Assembly: GCA_022823225.1 (NCBI GenBank)
Contig: JAJDXM010000017.1
Coordinates: 1-64,000, forward strand
Origin: Gemmatimonadota bacterium
GTDB taxonomy: Bacteria; Gemmatimonadota; Gemmatimonadetes; Longimicrobiales; Gaopeijiaceae
Direction: 5' to 3'
DNA: 64,000 bases
Part shown: piece by piece, positions 54,351-64,000 of the stretch
How positions within the stretch are numbered: the stretch's first letter is position 1
Layout of the letters: each line of letters opens with the position of its first letter
The notes under the pieces: generated by a model
What the model was told of the DNA's origin: nothing
The model's database searches: none
Seen by the model: the letters and a program-made list of their open reading frames with translations, nothing else
Made by a program: the position numbers and the translations under genes

Positions 54351-54416
54351 CCCGTGGATCGTCGCCGAGTGGCACCGGGGGCGTCGAGACGCCGGGCCGG
54401 CCAGCAGGTGGCCTCC

Positions 54417-55937: not shown

Positions 55938-56917
55938 TGCTGGCCCGCGCGGCAGCGGACTTCTACTGGATGGGCCGGTACGTGGAGCGTGCCGAGCAGA
56001 CGGCCCGTCTCCTGGACTACCAGTTGACCCGCCTGGTCGACACCCCCGCCGAGGAGTTGGCCCGGGGATGGAGCATCCTCTACGACATCTTCGGGCTCGC
56101 CCCGCCCGGTCTGGCCAGCGATGCAGACGAAGCCGAGGCCTTTCTGATCGCGGATGCCTATACGCTGGCCGGCGCGGTGGTCGAGGACGAGACCAGGCCT
56201 GCTTCGCTGGTATCGTGCTGGGGGCAGGCGCGCGACAACGCGACGCAGCTTCGTCCATGGCTTCCGGTGCAGGTGTGGACGACGCTCAATCGCGGTTTCC
56301 TATGGCTCCGGGACACCGAGTTCGCGGCGGCGTGGGCCGTGGGACCGGCCACGCTGGTGTGCGAGGCAAGGGACCGGCTGCGGCTGTTCGGCGGGGTGGT
56401 GGACGCGACGATGTCGCGCGACGACGCATGGCGGTTCATGCAGCTCGGCTGCTTCGTGGAGCGGCTGCAGCAACAGGCGGTCCTGCTCGGCACCTGGGAC
56501 CGTTCCGGCAACGTGTCCGGCGGAAGCCCGTCCGCCTGGTGGGCCGAACTGCTGCGGATCTGCGACGCCTACGATTTCTACTGCCGAAACCGCTCGATGG
56601 TGGTCAGGCGGGATTCGGCGCTCATGTTTCTTGTTCGGAACCCGGAATTGCCGCGATCCCTGCGCTTCGCCGTCCATCAGATCGGCGAACTGCTGGCAGA
56701 CATCGACCCGCAGGGCGCGCGGTATCCCCTGGCCCCCCCGCATCGCATGGCACTTCACCTCGCAGCCTCCGTGGAGATGAGCCCCCGGGGCGGGGAGGGC
56801 CGGGGGGACGATATCGGCGACACCTTCAGCACGCTGCTCGCGGACAGCCTGAGCCTGCACGAGCTCGCAATGGCCACGTACGTCGACTATCCGGTCGAAG
56901 AGGGGCTCCCGGCGTGA
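55937..56917 (+). CDS. Alpha-E domain (DUF403) protein
   Basis: This 326-residue all-helical alpha-E protein has the hallmark N-terminus LARAAADFYWMGRYVERAEQ and LLDYQL. Later segments are RDNATQLRPWLPVQVWTTLN and WRFMQLGCFVERLQQQAVLL. Alpha-E proteins are predicted partners of circularly permuted ATP-grasp ligases. The start overlaps the ATP-grasp stop and the stop overlaps the transglutaminase GTG (GTGA), so the three are translationally coupled. Their biochemical role is unproven. Confidence 0.9.
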   Translation: MLARAAADFYWMGRYVERAEQTARLLDYQLTRLVDTPAEELARGWSILYDIFGLAPPGLASDADEAEAFLIADAYTLAGAVVEDETRPASLVSCWGQARDNATQLRPWLPVQVWTTLNRGFLWLRDTEFAAAWAVGPATLVCEARDRLRLFGGVVDATMSRDDAWRFMQLGCFVERLQQQAVLLGTWDRSGNVSGGSPSAWWAELLRICDAYDFYCRNRSMVVRRDSALMFLVRNPELPRSLRFAVHQIGELLADIDPQGARYPLAPPHRMALHLAASVEMSPRGGEGRGDDIGDTFSTLLADSLSLHELAMATYVDYPVEEGLPA

Positions 56918-57987
56918 GCGCGATCCACATGATCGAGCACGAACTGGAATACCGCTACGCGCGCGCGGTGCGCGGGTCCGTCATGACCCTGTTTGTTTCG
57001 CCTCTGGTGGATCGGCGCCAGCGGCTGCACGAGTTTTCCCTCGAGACCGAACCCGCCGGTCCCGTGTCCGGGTTCCTGGACCCCTGGGGGAACCGGGGAC
57101 ACTTCTTCGACCGCCATGCCCCGCACGACCGGCTGCGCATCTTCGCCCGCTCGCGGGTCGAGGTCGAACCCGGCGGCGGCGGCGACACCGCGGACGAAGC
57201 CGGAAGTGGGATCGATGTGGGACTGATGTTGCAGCCCAGCCGGTTCGTCAGGCCGTCGTCCGCAGTGCTGGAGGGGTTCATTTCGGCCAGCGGGATACCG
57301 CCTGCGCACGCCACCCTGGAGAGTCTCCGGAATCTCCGGTCGCGGATCTACCGGCTCTTCGAGTACGCCCCCGGAAGTACGGCGGCACACTCCCCGATCG
57401 ACCGCATTCTGCAGACTGGGCGCGGAGTCTGCCAGGACTATGCCCATGTCATGGCCTCGATCTGCCGCAGGTGGGGAATCCCGGCCCGCTACGTGTCGGG
57501 ATACCTCGCCCCCGCCCCCGGCGCAACCACGCGGGGCGAGAGCCACGCCTGGGTGGAATGCTGGCTGCCGGGGCTGGGGTGGACCGGCTTCGATCCGGCC
57601 AATGACAGCGCATGCGGCGAGCGGCATCTGCGCGTCGCCGTCGGAAGGGACTACGGCGACGTGCCACCGTCCCGCGGCATCTTCTCCGGTGCCGCCGAAT
57701 CCGTGCTCATCACACAGGTCACAATCGCAAGCCGCGGGACCGATCGCATTGCAGATGGCGACCGCGGCCTCCACGACAGCACTCTCAGCAGGAGCACCAC
57801 ACCATGCAAGACACAAAGCGACCCCTCTTCGCCCCCCTCGTCCTCTGGGTCCCCGCGATTCTCGCGGCCGCGGCCGCCGCCGAACCCGCGAGCGGCCAAT
57901 CGGCTTCGGTCGGGGCCGACGTTGTCAGCCGCTACGTGTGGCGCGGGACCGACTTCGGAGAATCCATGGCCGTTCAGCCCGCGCTGA
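56914..57987 (+). CDS. Transglutaminase-like cysteine protease domain protein with run-on C-terminus
   Basis: This protein has the transglutaminase fold (bacterial type near ATP-grasp ligases). The N-terminal beta domain starts IHMIEHELEYRYARAVRG. The catalytic cysteine is in GRGVCQDYAHVMASICRRWG (about residue 172), the His in GESHAWVECWLPGLGWTGFDP (about 210) and the acidic residue in the same block. The domain should end near VLITQVTIASR (about 270). The open frame instead continues 80-odd residues of low-complexity sequence, through the ribosome-binding region of torF and 184 nt into that gene. The GTG start overlaps the alpha-E stop. Confidence 0.85.
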   Translation: MSAIHMIEHELEYRYARAVRGSVMTLFVSPLVDRRQRLHEFSLETEPAGPVSGFLDPWGNRGHFFDRHAPHDRLRIFARSRVEVEPGGGGDTADEAGSGIDVGLMLQPSRFVRPSSAVLEGFISASGIPPAHATLESLRNLRSRIYRLFEYAPGSTAAHSPIDRILQTGRGVCQDYAHVMASICRRWGIPARYVSGYLAPAPGATTRGESHAWVECWLPGLGWTGFDPANDSACGERHLRVAVGRDYGDVPPSRGIFSGAAESVLITQVTIASRGTDRIADGDRGLHDSTLSRSTTPCKTQSDPSSPPSSSGSPRFSRPRPPPNPRAANRLRSGPTLSAATCGAGPTSENPWPFSPR

Positions 57988-58529
57988 CCTTCTCGATGGG
58001 GAACCTCGAAGCGGGCGCCTGGGGTTCCTATTCCGTCTCCAAGTCGGGCGCGGACGCCAACGAGAACGACCTCTGGGCCTCGTACACGGTCGAGGCCGGC
58101 AACGGCGCCTCGATATCCCTGGGTTTCACCGACTACTACTTCCCTTCGCCGGATGCCGAGCACGGCTTCCGGAACGCCGACGCCCACACGTTCGAGCTCT
58201 CGGTGGGCTTTTCCGGTCCCGAGAGCCTTCCGGTCTCCCTGTACGGCGGGATGCTCGTGAAGGGCGACGAGGACAACTCCGTCTACCTCGAAGCGAGTCT
58301 CCCCGTCGACGCGGTTGAAGGGGTCGATCTGATGCTGGTCGCCGGAATGGTGGCCGGAGAGAGCGGGTTCTACAAAACCGAAGGCGCCGGGCTCGTCAAC
58401 CTCGGAGTCTCGGCGGGCACGGAGGTCGAGATCACCGATTCCTTCGCGCTGCCGGTGAGCGTCTCCTGGATCGTCAATCCGGACGCGGACCGGGCGTTCC
58501 TGGTTTTCGGGGTAAGCCTGGTGCCGTAG
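57804..58529 (+). CDS. TorF/Gcw_chp-type outer-membrane protein
   Basis: This 241-residue predicted outer-membrane beta-barrel has a signal peptide (about 1-29, ending AAEPASGQ). The conserved start SVGADVVSRYVWRGTDFGES is typical of the TorF (TIGR02001/Gcw_chp) family, followed by alternating beta strands ending in FGVSLVP. ATG 57804 is inside the run-on end of the transglutaminase frame, with AGGAG 9 nt upstream. TorF-type genes are often near ammonium transporter genes, as here. Transport substrate unknown. Confidence 0.8.
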   Translation: MQDTKRPLFAPLVLWVPAILAAAAAAEPASGQSASVGADVVSRYVWRGTDFGESMAVQPALTFSMGNLEAGAWGSYSVSKSGADANENDLWASYTVEAGNGASISLGFTDYYFPSPDAEHGFRNADAHTFELSVGFSGPESLPVSLYGGMLVKGDEDNSVYLEASLPVDAVEGVDLMLVAGMVAGESGFYKTEGAGLVNLGVSAGTEVEITDSFALPVSVSWIVNPDADRAFLVFGVSLVP

Positions 58530-59109
58530 CAGCCCGCGGACCAGAGCCCCCCGGCATTCGAGCGGCGATGCTCTCGGGGCCTTGTCCACGGACTGCTGGC
58601 TGCGAGTCGGGGCGGCCGGATTCGAACCGGCGACCTCCTGCTCCCAAACCGACGAAGGACGGACGCAAATCACGGTAAGAAACCCTGTAAGTTCAGGTGG
58701 AGAAACACGATCTGCGCATCTTACCGTTTTACCATGTCGGAGTCTGCCGTTCCTAATCAGCGCGAAAAACGGGTCATTCGGACGGAATCTGGACTGACCG
58801 GGTGCCTCACGGAGATGTCTTGACAACCGGATTGTTGGTGCCGCGTTCCATGCGGTTTGGAGGTGGCACCGCAACGCGTGAGCAGGTCCTTCGCCGCCGT
58901 TGGGCTGGGTACCCATGGCGGCGGAGGGTGGTTTGCGGATGCGGTGCTGACCGTCGAGGACGGTCGCCAGTTCCGCCACGAGGTGCGCTTCATTCATCAC
59001 CGTCGGACGGCGCCTGTACGCCGAGGGCATCCCTCGAAGGCGCGTCCCGTACGCTTCCGTCGCCGAGTACTACCCACCCATCGGCGCGACCGGACTCACT
59101 CCGTACCCA
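58530..59109. other. 580-bp region with a tRNA fragment; no clear gene
   Basis: This gap lies between torF and the convergent membrane-protein gene. It holds a tRNA-Pro-like 3' fragment (58606-58650) and, beyond it, sequence with several short open frames, none convincing. The repeated word TCTTACCGT/CTTACCGTT lies near 58680-58735. It is probably the junction between chromosome and a mobile element. Confidence 0.4.
58606..58650 (-). other. tRNA-Pro-like 3' fragment (probable att site)
   Basis: On the minus strand the sequence runs from GGTTTGGGAGC (TGG anticodon-loop position) through a variable-loop GGTC and a perfect T-arm (GCCGG-TTCGAAT-CCGGC) to an acceptor half CGCCCCGAC. There is no D-arm or 5' acceptor half upstream. 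Such 3' tRNA fragments are the usual att cores of tRNA-targeted integrases. Confidence 0.6.
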
Positions 59110-59946
59110 TTAGGCCGGGCGACTGAATCGGCTCGCCAAGGCATTAGCCAGCGTCTCGATAGCCGCGTAGATCGGTTTCACGGCAAGGCCGGACGCGAAC
59201 GCGATCACGACGGGTGCCATCGCGATTGGGGCCGGGACGTCCGCGCTCGTCGCGTCGCCCCCGCCTGGAGCGGCCAACTCTCCCACAGGCGATCCGAAGT
59301 CCGTAAGGACTACGACCGCGAACACGGCGATCATAGCACCGAGGAAGATGCGCACGATATCACCCTGCTGTCGCACTCGCTCGTAGGCCTGTTCGGACAG
59401 CCTGTTGGAGAGATGCTTGGCGAGAAACGTGCATGCACCGACACTTCCCCAGAGTGCGGGGATGAGCAGGGAGTTTAGCGCTCCCAAAAGCGTCACCCAG
59501 AACCCATCGGGCCGGAGGAGGTGCGGGATCGCATGCACAACGAGAGCGATCCCGAAAAGCACGACCCCGACCCACAACGGCCGGTACGACGCGCTCCGCA
59601 GCCCAGCGGCCGCAGTGTCCAGAACGCTACGGCCGTTGACGCCACGCTTCTCGTACGTCACGCTCGCGACCTTGGCGTACGCTTCCATCAGGATCTTCCA
59701 GCTTGCCGCCGAGGGCGATGACGTGGCCTTTGCTATCGCTTCGGCAAGCGTGCCCAATGGATCCTCGCCACCTTGGATTTCGTCGTCTCCAAACAGACCG
59801 TTCCCGTGGCGGCCGACATACAGCGCGAGGGCGTTGGCCTCCTCAAGAAGTGTGTTGCCGTTCAGTTGCTCCCACGTACTCGCGTGGTCGTCATCCGCGG
59901 CATCACACCTGGGTTCGTTCTTCGGTGCTTGATCTTGTCCAGCCAT
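59110..59946 (-). CDS. Hypothetical membrane protein (island cargo)
   Basis: I do not recognise a family. ATG 59946 (GAGGAGG upstream) gives 278 residues. A soluble acidic N-terminal half (about 1-120, with LLEEANALALYVGRHGNGLFG) is followed by four hydrophobic segments: LWVGVVLFGIALVVHAIPHLL, LLGALNSLLIPALWGSVGACTF, FLGAMIAVFAVVVLTDF and PIAMAPVVIAFASGLAVKPIY. The last gene of the leftward island run, it could be a membrane effector of a defence system, but nothing diagnostic supports that. Confidence 0.6.
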   Translation of the reverse strand: MAGQDQAPKNEPRCDAADDDHASTWEQLNGNTLLEEANALALYVGRHGNGLFGDDEIQGGEDPLGTLAEAIAKATSSPSAASWKILMEAYAKVASVTYEKRGVNGRSVLDTAAAGLRSASYRPLWVGVVLFGIALVVHAIPHLLRPDGFWVTLLGALNSLLIPALWGSVGACTFLAKHLSNRLSEQAYERVRQQGDIVRIFLGAMIAVFAVVVLTDFGSPVGELAAPGGGDATSADVPAPIAMAPVVIAFASGLAVKPIYAAIETLANALASRFSRPA

Positions 59947-60045
59947 GGGCACAGCCCTCCTCGTGCAATCAACTCTCCGAGCTGTCTTGAAGTACCGGGA
60001 TCGCGACCGGGGCACTCACCCCTCTTCGCACCGTCTGACCTCCAG

Positions 60046-60221
60046 TCATTTCCACGCCAACCTCGGTTTCTCTCCACTTGAGAGTTGATCGAATGCCGCC
60101 AGCACATACCGCTGCGTCCGGTACTCTCCGAACTCCCTTATCTGATGTTGCTTGAGCGACGGGGAGGGGGTGCATTGGGCTACGTGAATCCAGGATCCAT
60201 TCGAGATCGGCCCGCCCCAGC
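60046..60221 (-). pseudogene. Decayed C-terminal end of a second methyltransferase-type gene
   Basis: The minus strand encodes ADLEWILDSRSP in one frame and then SLKQHQIREFGEYRTQRYVL in the next. These are the same peptides that end the intact target-recognition reading frame at 60.8 kb. One extra base (24 nt versus 23 nt between the two blocks) breaks the frame. It is a truncated copy, probably all that remains of a second gene or a duplication scar. Confidence 0.75.
60083..60221. repeat. Direct repeat, copy 1 (homologous to 60798-60935)
   Basis: The 139-bp copy matches 60798-60935 at roughly 80-85% by eye, same orientation, ending in an identical ~30-bp block (AATCCAGGATCCATTCGAGA and on). 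The pair flanks two small genes. Confidence 0.8.
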
Positions 60222-60251
60222 GCAGTCGTTCCGCACGGTCGCTGGTTAATG

Positions 60252-60506
60252 TCACTCCTCCGGTGGCTGGTCGCCAAACACGTCCATCACGGCACCGCGA
60301 ACCGCCTCGCTTTCCGACGGGGACGGGTCCGAATTCAGATGTTTCGCGAGGCGCGCGGCCAGCTCCCGATGGTCTTCAACCTTCACCAGAAAGAACATGA
60401 CGCGCGCTTGCTCGTATACCCGCCCTATCGCATGCCCCTGCTCGAGTGCCCTGTCAACCCATTCTCGAAACTCGCCATCGGCTTCCTTCCGGCGTGTCCC
60501 TTCCAT
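60252..60506 (-). CDS. Small unknown protein B in the modification locus
   Basis: This 84-residue protein is charged and predicted helical: MEGTRRKEADGEFREWVDRA, GRVYEQARVMFFLVKVEDHR and the acidic C-terminus DVFGDQPPEE. ATG 60506 overlaps the stop of the preceding small gene by one base (TGATG). I recognise no family. Its clean frame between two copies of the methyltransferase gene end suggests real cargo. Confidence 0.6.
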   Translation of the reverse strand: MEGTRRKEADGEFREWVDRALEQGHAIGRVYEQARVMFFLVKVEDHRELAARLAKHLNSDPSPSESEAVRGAVMDVFGDQPPEE

Positions 60507-60682
60507 CAGCCGTCCGCGACGGCTGCGGGCACCGCCGCGATGGCGGGCGGTCCGGCGTTGCGTCGTTCTTCGACTTGGCCCTTCAGTATTTCCAGGGCGC
60601 GCGCCTCTTCCGGCGTCGGTTCGGTGCGTTGCGCGAAGCCCCCGGCCAGGTGTCGGTCGGCGCGCGGGTCGGTCAGTTCCAT
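60506..60682 (-). CDS. Small unknown protein A in the modification locus
   Basis: This 58-residue product of a reading frame too short for most gene callers runs from ATG 60682 with GGGAGG 9 nt upstream. It starts MELTDPRADRHLAGGFAQRT, contains a helical PEEARALEILKGQVEERR, and ends in an Ala/Pro-rich tail. The TGATG overlap with small protein B implies coupled translation. A two-gene unit of this size is reminiscent of small regulatory or antitoxin pairs, but there is no motif to prove it. Confidence 0.5.
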   Translation of the reverse strand: MELTDPRADRHLAGGFAQRTEPTPEEARALEILKGQVEERRNAGPPAIAAVPAAVADG

Positions 60683-60736
60683 GAGTGCAACCTCCCAGGA
60701 TTGGTATTCGTGTTGGGTCGTTTACGGGCTTGCATA

Positions 60737-61426
60737 TCAATTATGGACATCGTGAGGCGCGGGGTTCGTAGCGAGCTCTGGGACCTCGCCACGCTGTAGT
60801 TGGTCGAATGCCGCCAGCACGTATCGCCGGGTCCGGTACTCACCGAACCGCTTGATTTCGTGCTGCTTGAGCGACGGAAAGGAGGTGCCGGGGCTACGCG
60901 AATCCAGGATCCATTCGAGATCGGCCCGCTCCAGCCGGTAAATCTGTGCGAAGATCGCGTCGAGTTCGCATTGGAGCCGATGGCGGCGTGGATCGTCCCA
61001 CGAGAACGGCCGCTCTTGATAGCCGAGATCCGTAGCAAAGCCCTCAAGCTCATGACCCGTGTAGGTCAACTCCAAGACGCGGGGCACGATGAGTTCGACA
61101 TACCTGCTTCCGCATCCGGCGTCCTCCAAGTAGGCGTCCGGCGGCAGGACCGGGAGCTGCTTCACGATGAAGAAGTTCATGTTGACGCCTCCGACCGAGA
61201 ACCTCGCGGCCCAATCGAGAGGGATGGAGTTCATGTTGGCGACGACGAGGGCGGCAGCGACCGCCGGAGCCGTCGTGTAATCGACCACCGGTGCGCTGTT
61301 GCCCACGCCACCGGACGCGAGGCCGGTCGAGATCACCGTGCGCTCGTTCGTGGCTGTCGTGATTCCGCGCAGGGCCTGAAGCCACGCACGGTGATCGACG
61401 TTGACAAGCGGGGCCTTGTTGCTCAC
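60737..61426 (-). CDS. Target-recognition/C-terminal part of the Eco57I-class modification enzyme
   Basis: This 229-residue frame from GTG 61426 contains the C-terminal region of Eco57I-type enzymes: LQALRGITTATNERTVISTG, GVGNSAPVVDYTTAP, LVVANMNSIPLDWAARFSVG, FFIVKQLPVLPPDAY, ELDAIFAQIYRLERADLEWI, and GEYRTRRYVLAAFDQLQRG. The same frame is open upstream to 61528, where WLVVFRDIAAPTNQRTAIFA repeats the motif. Its GTG overlaps the stop of the methyltransferase frame (GTGA), so it could be made by re-initiation as a separate polypeptide. Otherwise it is the detached end of a frameshifted gene. Confidence 0.75.
   Translation of the reverse strand: MSNKAPLVNVDHRAWLQALRGITTATNERTVISTGLASGGVGNSAPVVDYTTAPAVAAALVVANMNSIPLDWAARFSVGGVNMNFFIVKQLPVLPPDAYLEDAGCGSRYVELIVPRVLELTYTGHELEGFATDLGYQERPFSWDDPRRHRLQCELDAIFAQIYRLERADLEWILDSRSPGTSFPSLKQHEIKRFGEYRTRRYVLAAFDQLQRGEVPELATNPAPHDVHN
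60798..60935. repeat. Direct repeat, copy 2 (homologous to 60083-60221)
   Basis: This copy lies inside the intact C-terminal reading frame and encodes its last ~45 residues. Copy 1 is the decayed version 715 bp away. Confidence 0.8.
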
Positions 61427-64000
61427 AGCGGTTCCCGGGACGGTGGCGAAGATTGCAGTTCTCTGGTTTGTCGGTGCCGCAATGTCTCTGAAGACGACGA
61501 GCCAAAAGGAGTGTCGTTCCAGAATCGCTCAGCCCAAGGATCGGGATCACCGTGAAGATTCCCGTGCGCTCGTTGGTCGCGTTTGTTATCTTCCGGAGAG
61601 CGAGTTGATGGCCAGTGCTTCGAGAGCGCGGAGGACTCGGGTCGGTCGGTCGGTCGGTCGGTCGGTCGGTCGGTCGGTCGGTCGGTCGGTCGGTCGGTCG
61701 GTCGGTCGGTCGGTCGGTTTAATCTGACGAGGTCGTTGCGCCCTCCGACCGATTTGTCAAGTCTTTTCGCCACTTCATTTTCCGGCACCCAATACCTCGG
61801 GATGACCACAGACCCCGGCTCCGCCTTCTCGTCCGCCGTCATGGGGCGCGCTCGACCGTTTCGGATGTCCTTCTCTGACACCCCATCGAACGTGGCGAAC
61901 CGGTGGTCGTACTGGTGGAACAGCTTGGCCTCGTAGAGCGGCAGGCAGCGTTCGTCGTGGTCTTCGTGCGCGAACACGTTCCCATCGAGCGCCCACCCGT
62001 CCTCCTCCAGGTTCTCGCGGGTCTTGAAGAGCCCGGAGTCGTTCGACATGTCGAACATTCGCTGGAAGCTGACCCCCCAAGGATTCTCCTCGGGCTGTCC
62101 CTTGCGCGCCTCCTTCCAGAACACGCCGGCGCGCCGGTACATTTTGCGGGCAATCTCCATATCGCGCCGCGTGCGGAAGATTGGACAGGTCCGGGTGTTC
62201 GGATTGAACAGCTTGAAGTCCTCGGCAGCGAGCGTGAACCGCCGCTCCCGTTCCTTTAGGTGCTCGACCTGGTGCAGGAAGAACGCATACTCGGCCTCCG
62301 GCACGGGATCCTCGCGCCCGGCGAGCGTGAGTAGGCAGAACTTGTAGGAGCGATGGACGCCAGGAAACACAGCCTCCCGGTTCTCGAAGTCGTACAGCGT
62401 GGCGAGCCGCCTGTTGGTGACGACGTGCTCGAAGAACTTGCGGGTCGAGTGGTCGGTGGCGATGCCCGTGGGTACGATGAGTCCGGCGCGGCCCTTCGGG
62501 TTGATGAGCCGCAGGCACGTCTCGGCGAACACCGCGTAGGTGTTCACGTCCCCCGTGCCGGTGAGCGGGAACCGGCCACCCGTCCGCACGAACTGGCTGG
62601 CCGCTTCGGCTTCGCGTCGTGCGCGGTGGAACGCCCGGTAGAGCGTCTTTTCCGCGTCCGAGGCATCGGCCCGGTTGAGGTTTCGGATGAGCCGGTTGCG
62701 CACGGCCTTGTTCCGCGCCGCCGCGATCTGCGGGGAGCGGGTCGCGAAGAACTCTTTCTCCTGGAGCTTGATCCGCTCCCACGGCGGGTTGCCGAGCACC
62801 GCGTCGAACCCGCCGTCCTGCATGATCTCGGCGAACCTGAGGTGCCAGTGGAGGAACCGGTGCTGGCGCGACAGATCGCGGACCTGACGAGCGACGCCGA
62901 CCAGTCCGAGTTCGGCGGTGTCCCGCTGTTGGATGTGTTCCGTCAAGGGCACGGTCTTGAAGGTCCGCCGAGTCTTGGGCGCGAAGAACGCCCCGGCGAA
63001 AAGGCTTGCCCGCATCGCCTCCTGCGCATGGGTGGGGTCGTGTCCGGCCGCCTCCCATGCGGAGCGCTTGGCCTCCACATCATCGAGCGTCTCCTCCGGC
63101 ATCGCGTCCAGATCAATGCTCGTTATCGCGACTTCGAGCATGGCTTCCTCGTCGAGGAACAGGTCGCCTTGTCCCCCTGAACGGTTCCTCTTCTTGAGGT
63201 CCTTGCACACTCCCTTGTCGTCGCCCGTAAGCGGCTCGTATGCGGCGGCCGGGATCCCGTCGCCGAGGATCTCCGGATCGAGGATGCCGATCAGGCTGTC
63301 GCCCAGCGCGATGTGGGAATCGAGGAAGGTGAGCGGCTTGCCCGGCTCGATGGTCTCGATCCAGAGCGCGGTCTTGCAGAGTTCAACGGCGAGCGGATTG
63401 CGGTCCACGCCGTAGACGCAGTGCCGGACGACTTCGCGGAGCGCGTGGCGGCGCGTGGCCTCGTCGTGGCCGTCGTCGTCGGCTTCGATGCGCGCGATCT
63501 CGGCGGCGAGCCGCCGCGCCGCGGCCAAGAGGAAATGGCCCGATCCGCAGGCCGGATCAACGACTCGCAGACGGAGAATGGCGGCTGCCGGGTCTTCCGG
63601 GTGCTCGGCGATGGTCCGCCTGATGACGGGGTCGAGCGTGGACCTTACGAGTTCCCCTACGAGGCTAGGCGGCGTGTAGTAGGAGCCACTGAGCTTCCGC
63701 GCCGAGCCCTTGGCCTTCCCTCCGCCATCGTCGCCGGCGAACGCGAACCGCCACGGGGAGGCGTGCACGTCGATGACGGGGTGGAGCTCGAGCAGGCTCT
63801 CGTATACGGACCCGAGTTCCTCAGTGTCCATGTCCCGGTAGTTGATGCGGGCGAGGCTCTTCCCCGCAAGCGACGGGAAATACGCGAGCGTGCGGATGGC
63901 CTCAAGCAGATGCTTGTTCGCGATCGCCGCTTGGTCGAGGTCGTGGCATTGCTTATCCCGGAACAGGCCGCCGAGGGCCGGAAGGCCGAGTCCCGGTGCT
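61423..64000 (-). CDS. Eco57I-class (type IIG/PglX/DrmMI-like) DNA adenine methyltransferase, 5' end outside window
   Basis: About 858 residues are visible; the frame is open at the right edge. LGSVYESLLELHP leads into the SAM-binding motif I VVDPACGSGHFLLAAARRLA. VYGVDRNPLAVELCKTALW and motif IV VLGNPPWERIKLQEKEFFA (NPPW, N6-adenine type) follow. A long middle region ends RYWVPENEVAKRLDKSVG. The frame then enters ~6 PTDR peptide repeats encoded by the GGTC tract and an unrelated 60-residue tail, stopping at 61423. Whether a nuclease domain is present (type IIG) or this is a BREX PglX or DISARM DrmMI enzyme depends on sequence beyond the edge. Confidence 0.85.
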   Translation of the reverse strand, partial: APGLGLPALGGLFRDKQCHDLDQAAIANKHLLEAIRTLAYFPSLAGKSLARINYRDMDTEELGSVYESLLELHPVIDVHASPWRFAFAGDDGGGKAKGSARKLSGSYYTPPSLVGELVRSTLDPVIRRTIAEHPEDPAAAILRLRVVDPACGSGHFLLAAARRLAAEIARIEADDDGHDEATRRHALREVVRHCVYGVDRNPLAVELCKTALWIETIEPGKPLTFLDSHIALGDSLIGILDPEILGDGIPAAAYEPLTGDDKGVCKDLKKRNRSGGQGDLFLDEEAMLEVAITSIDLDAMPEETLDDVEAKRSAWEAAGHDPTHAQEAMRASLFAGAFFAPKTRRTFKTVPLTEHIQQRDTAELGLVGVARQVRDLSRQHRFLHWHLRFAEIMQDGGFDAVLGNPPWERIKLQEKEFFATRSPQIAAARNKAVRNRLIRNLNRADASDAEKTLYRAFHRARREAEAASQFVRTGGRFPLTGTGDVNTYAVFAETCLRLINPKGRAGLIVPTGIATDHSTRKFFEHVVTNRRLATLYDFENREAVFPGVHRSYKFCLLTLAGREDPVPEAEYAFFLHQVEHLKERERRFTLAAEDFKLFNPNTRTCPIFRTRRDMEIARKMYRRAGVFWKEARKGQPEENPWGVSFQRMFDMSNDSGLFKTRENLEEDGWALDGNVFAHEDHDERCLPLYEAKLFHQYDHRFATFDGVSEKDIRNGRARPMTADEKAEPGSVVIPRYWVPENEVAKRLDKSVGGRNDLVRLNRPTDRPTDRPTDRPTDRPTDRPTDRPESSALSKHWPSTRSPEDNKRDQRAHGNLHGDPDPWAERFWNDTPFGSSSSETLRHRQTRELQSSPPSREPL
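61640..61718. repeat. Tetranucleotide microsatellite (GGTC)n in the methyltransferase gene
   Basis: Seventy-nine bases of uninterrupted GGTC (19.75 units; GACC on the coding strand) lie between the methyltransferase and target-recognition parts. Each unit gained or lost shifts the frame by one. In the present length the coding frame reads Pro-Thr-Asp-Arg repeats. Such tracts are classic slipped-strand phase-variation sites in bacterial mod genes. Confidence 0.95.

Follow-up and report, generated by a model that had tools for sequence, protein, structure and literature searches.

The window, i.e., the whole stretch of 64,000 nucleotides that was analyzed, belongs to a Gemmatimonadota genome (G000) and contains a tRNA-Pro(UGG) sequence from which the 5' half is missing. 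This locus raises the question of whether the sequence is one end of a genomic island that was inserted into a tRNA gene by an integrase or a relic of another origin.

The fragment and the complete tRNA-Pro(UGG) gene

A previous sequence-only reading described a 45-bp 3' fragment of tRNA-Pro at 58606-58650. The fragment is real, and its exact limits are narrower:

58607-58648, minus strand: 42-bp 3' part of tRNA-Pro(UGG), defined by identity to the full tRNA; almost certainly the attR core and the island end

The fragment sequence on the minus strand, TTTGGGAGCAGGAGGTCGCCGGTTCGAATCCGGCCGCCCCGA, comprises the anticodon loop, 3' anticodon stem, variable loop, T arm, 3' acceptor strand and discriminator base, and extends in tRNA numbering from position 33 (anticodon loop base 1) to the discriminator base. 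A search within the same genome showed that it matches the 3' part of the full tRNA-Pro(UGG) at 42/42 positions (E = 2.1e-15); the number of exact 42-mer matches expected by chance in 4.19 Mb is approximately 4e-19. The ARAGORN program gave no tRNA call at the fragment. The description of a tRNA-Pro(UGG) piece without its 5' half was confirmed. A weak Rfam match of the fragment with the tmRNA T-arm was rejected.

The complete tRNA-Pro gene (74 nt, anticodon TGG) with the identical 3' sequence, whose existence had been predicted, was found on contig C73 (positions 2484-2557, matching part 2484-2525), and it is the only tRNA-Pro(UGG) copy detected in G000. Downstream of this gene, in convergent orientation, C73 encodes a 389-aa tyrosine integrase (L007:1263-2432; PF00589, E = 5.8e-19), with the end of the coding sequence 54 bp from the 3' end of the tRNA. 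Residues R236, K263, H333, R336, W357 and Y367 of the integrase are invariant across 93 aligned relatives. An integrase had been expected past the right edge of the window; it does lie beside the full tRNA gene, but both are on another contig, and an assembly gap falls inside the island. Beyond the integrase, C73 encodes a small protein whose HTH_17 match is sub-threshold, and at its edge the contig retains the end of a further, unnamed gene. The ORF at C73:35-520 appeared primase-like by eye, yet it has no Pfam match, and the name was withheld. PADLOC analysis found no match for the integrase or the orphan proteins. The fragment has the same sense as the full tRNA, with the island to its right, on the far side, as the Islander criteria require; this agrees with its designation as the left end of an island extending rightward.

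Arm-type binding sites of lambda-like integrases look like motifs shared by both sides of an island. The sequence next to the fragment is of this appearance:

58649-58700, minus strand: island-side arm of attR, GAACTTACAGGGTTTCTTACCGTGATTTGCGTCC, resembling GACTTACGTGATTTCTTGCCGTGATTTCGCGTCC; probable integrase arm-binding sites

In most occupied relatives, the fragment is preceded by GACTTACGTGATTTCTTGCCGTGATTTCGCGTCC or a close variant, of which the sequence at 58649-58700 is the form found in the window. In most occupied relatives, the restored tRNA is followed by TTGAACTTACGTGATTT, which is related to GACTTACGTGATTTCTTGCCGTGATTTCGCGTCC, or by a close variant. These motifs probably represent arm-type sites bound by the integrase.

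According to the proposed mechanism, the island-encoded tyrosine integrase would catalyze recombination between the chromosomal tRNA gene and an attP that contained the 3' portion of tRNA-Pro(UGG). Since the identity begins at the first base of the anticodon loop, the crossover most likely occurs in this loop. The whole tRNA gene would be rebuilt at the integrase end (attL, contig C73), and the old 3' part would be displaced to the far end (attR, 58607-58648). The island with its anti-phage genes could in principle be excised by the same integrase.

The tRNA-Pro(UGG) site in related genomes

The flanks and the extent of the island were determined by comparison with related genomes:

56887-57816, plus strand: chromosomal flank, transglutaminase-like protein; next gene at empty sites
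57804-58529, plus strand: chromosomal flank, Gcw_chp family protein (PF09694); adjoins the intact tRNA-Pro(UGG) in empty-site genomes
58649-64000: island DNA inside the window; missing at the empty sites of G001, G004 and G011 and shared with the sister island of G009

Outside the window, the island runs on to the contig end (C3:76651), followed by an assembly gap and by C73:1-2483, so that at least 20.5 kb are assembled, split between C73 and C3. The G+C content of the island, 66.9%, is close to the 67.8% of the flanks, which counts against the island reading, though its first 3 kb have a lower value, 62.4%.

In G001, G004 and G011, the genes for an Lnb-like protein, tRNA-Pro(UGG), the Gcw_chp protein and the transglutaminase follow one another without the island; a comparison with genomes lacking the island had been proposed by the sequence-only reading. 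In G000, the two flanks are separated: C73 has the Lnb-like gene next to the full tRNA, and the Gcw_chp gene is in the window. Because these two flanks adjoin one intact tRNA at the empty sites, C73 and C3 are regarded as two sides of one insertion, and we infer their continuity in G000 from the empty sites together with the sister island. Conservation of the region in all relatives, which would speak against an island, was not seen to the right of the fragment. G011 retains an arm remnant after its tRNA; therefore, its site may have been emptied by deletion rather than never occupied.

The sister island of G009 is closely related to that of G000, with identities of 97% for the integrase, 92% for the small protein and 95% for the first island ORF. 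At the DNA level, the two islands match over 3 kb at 93.7%, and the alignment stops at position 58604 of the window, three bases beyond the core. An independent assembly, that of G009, also contains the junction between fragment and cargo (91% over a 183-bp stretch spanning it). The island end is thus mapped independently, which effectively rules out a junction artefact. In G009, the gene L053:4828-9213, located between the tRNA fragment and the chromosomal flank, encodes a fusion of an RND efflux pump with an outer-membrane efflux domain. Record L160 (JAJDVR010000126.1) contains the same island's left end (DNA identity 98.9%), which is joined there to a different, non-tRNA attachment site, and the C-terminus of the integrase differs.

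The fragment was found in 11 of the 23 genomes of the genus (G000, G002, G003, G005, G008, G009, G010, G015, G016, G019 and G021), and its limits in these genomes are tRNA positions 33-74 or within two bases of them. In the complete single-contig genome G021, one replicon carries both the tRNA and the fragment, correctly oriented and separated by 20.9 kb. The fragment is present twice in G005, G010 and G015, and G009 contains a second integrase remnant beyond the fragment; both observations point to tandem insertion. Judging from these comparisons, the tRNA-Pro(UGG) site is a hotspot with tandem insertion.

Taken together, the full tRNA, the adjoining integrase, the empty sites and the sister island agree with the claim that the fragment was left by the integrase of a tRNA-targeted island, and the fragment is almost certainly the attR created when a tyrosine integrase inserted an integrative genomic island into tRNA-Pro(UGG). 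An old insertion whose island is no longer mobile, its ends being mere remnants, would account for the methyltransferase C-terminus that is out of frame in the assembly and for the integrase damage seen at this site in G003, where just the C-terminus is left, and in G021, with one TGA; it is unlikely, since the G000 integrase is intact, the att cores are identical over 42 bp, the arm motifs are retained, and the sister integrase in G009 is 97% identical. G000 is a MAG of 97 contigs, and contigs break at repeats, so an assembly chimera at the junction of fragment and cargo could be suspected; its probability is negligible given the same junction in G009 and the same layout in single-contig G021. 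A relic of tandem tRNA duplication or of tRNA gene decay, formed without an integrase, would fit the survival of only the 3' half but is hardly credible, because the break is at the anticodon loop in 11 genomes and an integrase adjoins the full gene; both the empty sites and the sister island disprove it.

Cargo of the island

Within the window, the following cargo was identified:

59110-60015, minus strand: orphan protein of 301 aa, encoded by the first gene of the island; the G009 sister island has a copy with 95% identity
60252-60740, minus strand: 162-aa orphan ORF; open frame, with a similar frame in G009
60737-61426, minus strand: methyltransferase C-terminal region, in a different frame from the main ORF in the assembly, according to frame analysis, intact paralogues and the G009 and G019 copies
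61423-64000, continuing to contig position 65082, minus strand: Eco57I/DrmMI-like N6-adenine methyltransferase, 1219 aa (PF07669, E = 4.8e-21; DrmMI, E = 1.7e-75)
61640-61715, plus strand: (GGTC)x19 tract within the methyltransferase ORF, probable phase-variation switch; tracts in five other copies

No Pfam or PADLOC match was found for the 301-aa protein, nor any family match in these databases for the 162-aa ORF, which is flanked on both sides by partial repeats of the methyltransferase C-terminus. The "modification gene" noted earlier to the right of the fragment is a methyltransferase, and it belongs to a defence cassette and carries a long tetranucleotide repeat. Near the same place, tracts are present in five other methyltransferase copies, namely, TCGGx14, GTCGx19, GGCAx24, AGGCx13 and AGCCx9; the loci of these five copies are L050, L053, L091, L093 and L098. 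Their units are GGTC, GGCA or AGCC when rotations are ignored, with 9 to 24 repeats, and several contigs end at the tract. The copies of G009 and G019 have one frame from the tract through the C-terminal part; in G000 there is a further frame difference, and the protein stops at 1219 aa. The tract suggests that the methyltransferase is probably phase-variable. An Rfam mir-341 match in this region was produced by the GGTC tract and was rejected.

On C3, two helicases accompany the 1219-aa methyltransferase, which is DrmMI/type IIG-like: a DruE-like one of 1746 aa that has a DUF559 nuclease domain, and a DpdE-like SNF2 helicase of 1002 aa. Adjacent AbiEi and AbiEii genes in the C3 part of the island (L009:16280-17900) were detected with PADLOC (E = 6.1e-91 and 1.8e-49), as the AbiE criterion demands. 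At the tRNA-Pro site of G021, the cargo consists of Hma-like genes, a CBASS set (cyclase, E1-E2, SAVED-HNH) and a relaxase. By its gene content, the tRNA-Pro site is a defence island site. No conjugation, transfer or virion genes were found among the scanned proteins of the assembled part of the island.

The one operon-like run of a DrmMI-like methyltransferase, a DpdE-like SNF2 helicase and a DruE-like helicase with DUF559 resembles DISARM, Dpd, Druantia and type IIG-like cassettes. However, the combination fits no named system as a whole, and the methyltransferase has a tetranucleotide tract. Assignment to DISARM (drmA, drmB, drmC with drmD/drmMI) was rejected: the assembled part has only DrmMI-like and DpdE/DrmD-like proteins, and the large helicase is closer to DruE.

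The integrase family, its targets and known systems

Matches to the integrase family number 30 in G000 (12 near full length), 55 in G008, 49 in G012, 48 in G019, 11 in G021 and 14 in G022; many of them are fragments. Most genomes of the genus have 10-55 matches, and the number is as low as 3 to 6 in a few. The members include L108-L133. Four tRNA species, Pro(UGG), Ile(GAT), Val(TAC) and Arg(CCT), have the arm motif directly at their 3' end, and the motif is also found beside the 5' end of tRNA-Ile, Val, Arg, Leu(CAA) and Leu(TAA). One tRNA can have integrases on both sides, at its 3' and 5' ends, as shown for Arg in G004 (L065, G004:C210) and Ile in G012 (L068, G012:C71), and also in L174 and L209.

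A tree was constructed for 102 integrases. The target labels require 15 changes on it versus 28.4 in shuffles, none of the 200 shuffles being as low. One side of a single branch (support 100/94) comprises 57 sequences, none of which abuts a recognised tRNA; the assumption that every family member targets a tRNA was therefore rejected. In G021, a dispersed repeat of approximately 115 bp consists of two halves joined at TGCC(A/G)GCCCGGC, and intact copies are dispersed in the genome. Two islands of G021 (C1:1143680-1148593 and 3262482-3275073, or 1143613-1148658 and 3262426-3275141 in wider limits; L240, L244, L260 and L264) are located at the palindromic centre of the repeat, each with its own integrase and one repeat half on each side, and the island side of the second carries the arm motif of the tRNA-Pro attR sites. 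Because these two islands come from one complete genome, we infer, rather than observe, that the whole tRNA-less clade targets repeat centres.

The repeat has at least about 40 copies in G000, halves counted, and no Rfam match. Partial copies in the window are located at 124-185, 54372-54401 and 58566-58603, the last directly adjoining the tRNA fragment. By eye, some integrases of the tRNA clade (L108, L070, L083 and L076) look as if they abut CTGCCANNNNTGGCAG-like palindromes after an apparent degenerate tRNA-Pro 3' end. In addition, tRNA-Pro(GGG) has a related integrase (G000:C87:2-1270) at a distance of approximately 150 bp from its 3' end, and the interval contains a repeat-half-like sequence.

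The named records of the family are Gemmatimonadota MAGs and MAGs labelled Gammaproteobacteria (labels as given). One of the latter carries a relative of a flank gene of the tRNA-Pro site, so mislabelling or mis-binning is possible. Some MAG names suggest that the hosts may live in marine sponges.

These data can be read, with about equal chances of being right or wrong, as one strongly multiplied Gemmatimonadota island family with one integrase arm architecture and diversified targets. One clade would use six tRNA species at or near the anticodon loop, from the 3' or 5' side, and the other the palindromic 12-bp centre of the ~115-bp repeat, whose many copies per genome would form a multi-copy attB and thus allow many islands per cell. 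The literature search on integrases with REP targets and on sponge Gemmatimonadota islands yielded nothing directly relevant. In the wider family, one integrase lineage has shifted its target between tRNA genes and a dispersed repeat; this natural series makes the evolution of integrase target choice directly testable.

The island is of a known kind, i.e., a tRNA-targeted integrative island with the crossover at the anticodon loop. It shares with the tRNA-integrated islands of Islander (PMC4383910) a full tDNA at one end, a displaced identical fragment at the other, an integrase by the restored tDNA and tandem arrays at one tDNA. Of the features used by Islander, G000 has the complete tRNA gene, the displaced identical fragment in the required orientation and the tyrosine integrase in the island. 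Both ends on one replicon, 2-200 kb apart, are found in G021 (20.9 kb); in G000 they lie on two contigs, and this split by an assembly gap is the sole difference, the mechanism being the same. Empty attB sites in relatives, the usual confirmation rather than an Islander filter, are present in G001, G004 and G011. Frequent target switching by integrases has already been noted (PMC4383910). The scale of the integrase family within one genus and a multi-copy repeat as a target may be new. With the present analysis, one terminus of a defence island is located to single-base precision, and a hotspot at tRNA-Pro is recognized in a group of which few cultures exist. Anti-phage defence islands located on integrative elements, among them genomic islands of Pseudomonas (PMC12629846), likewise combine a fixed hotspot with variable defence cargo; here, by contrast, the host belongs to Gemmatimonadota, and the integrase family is strongly multiplied within each genome.
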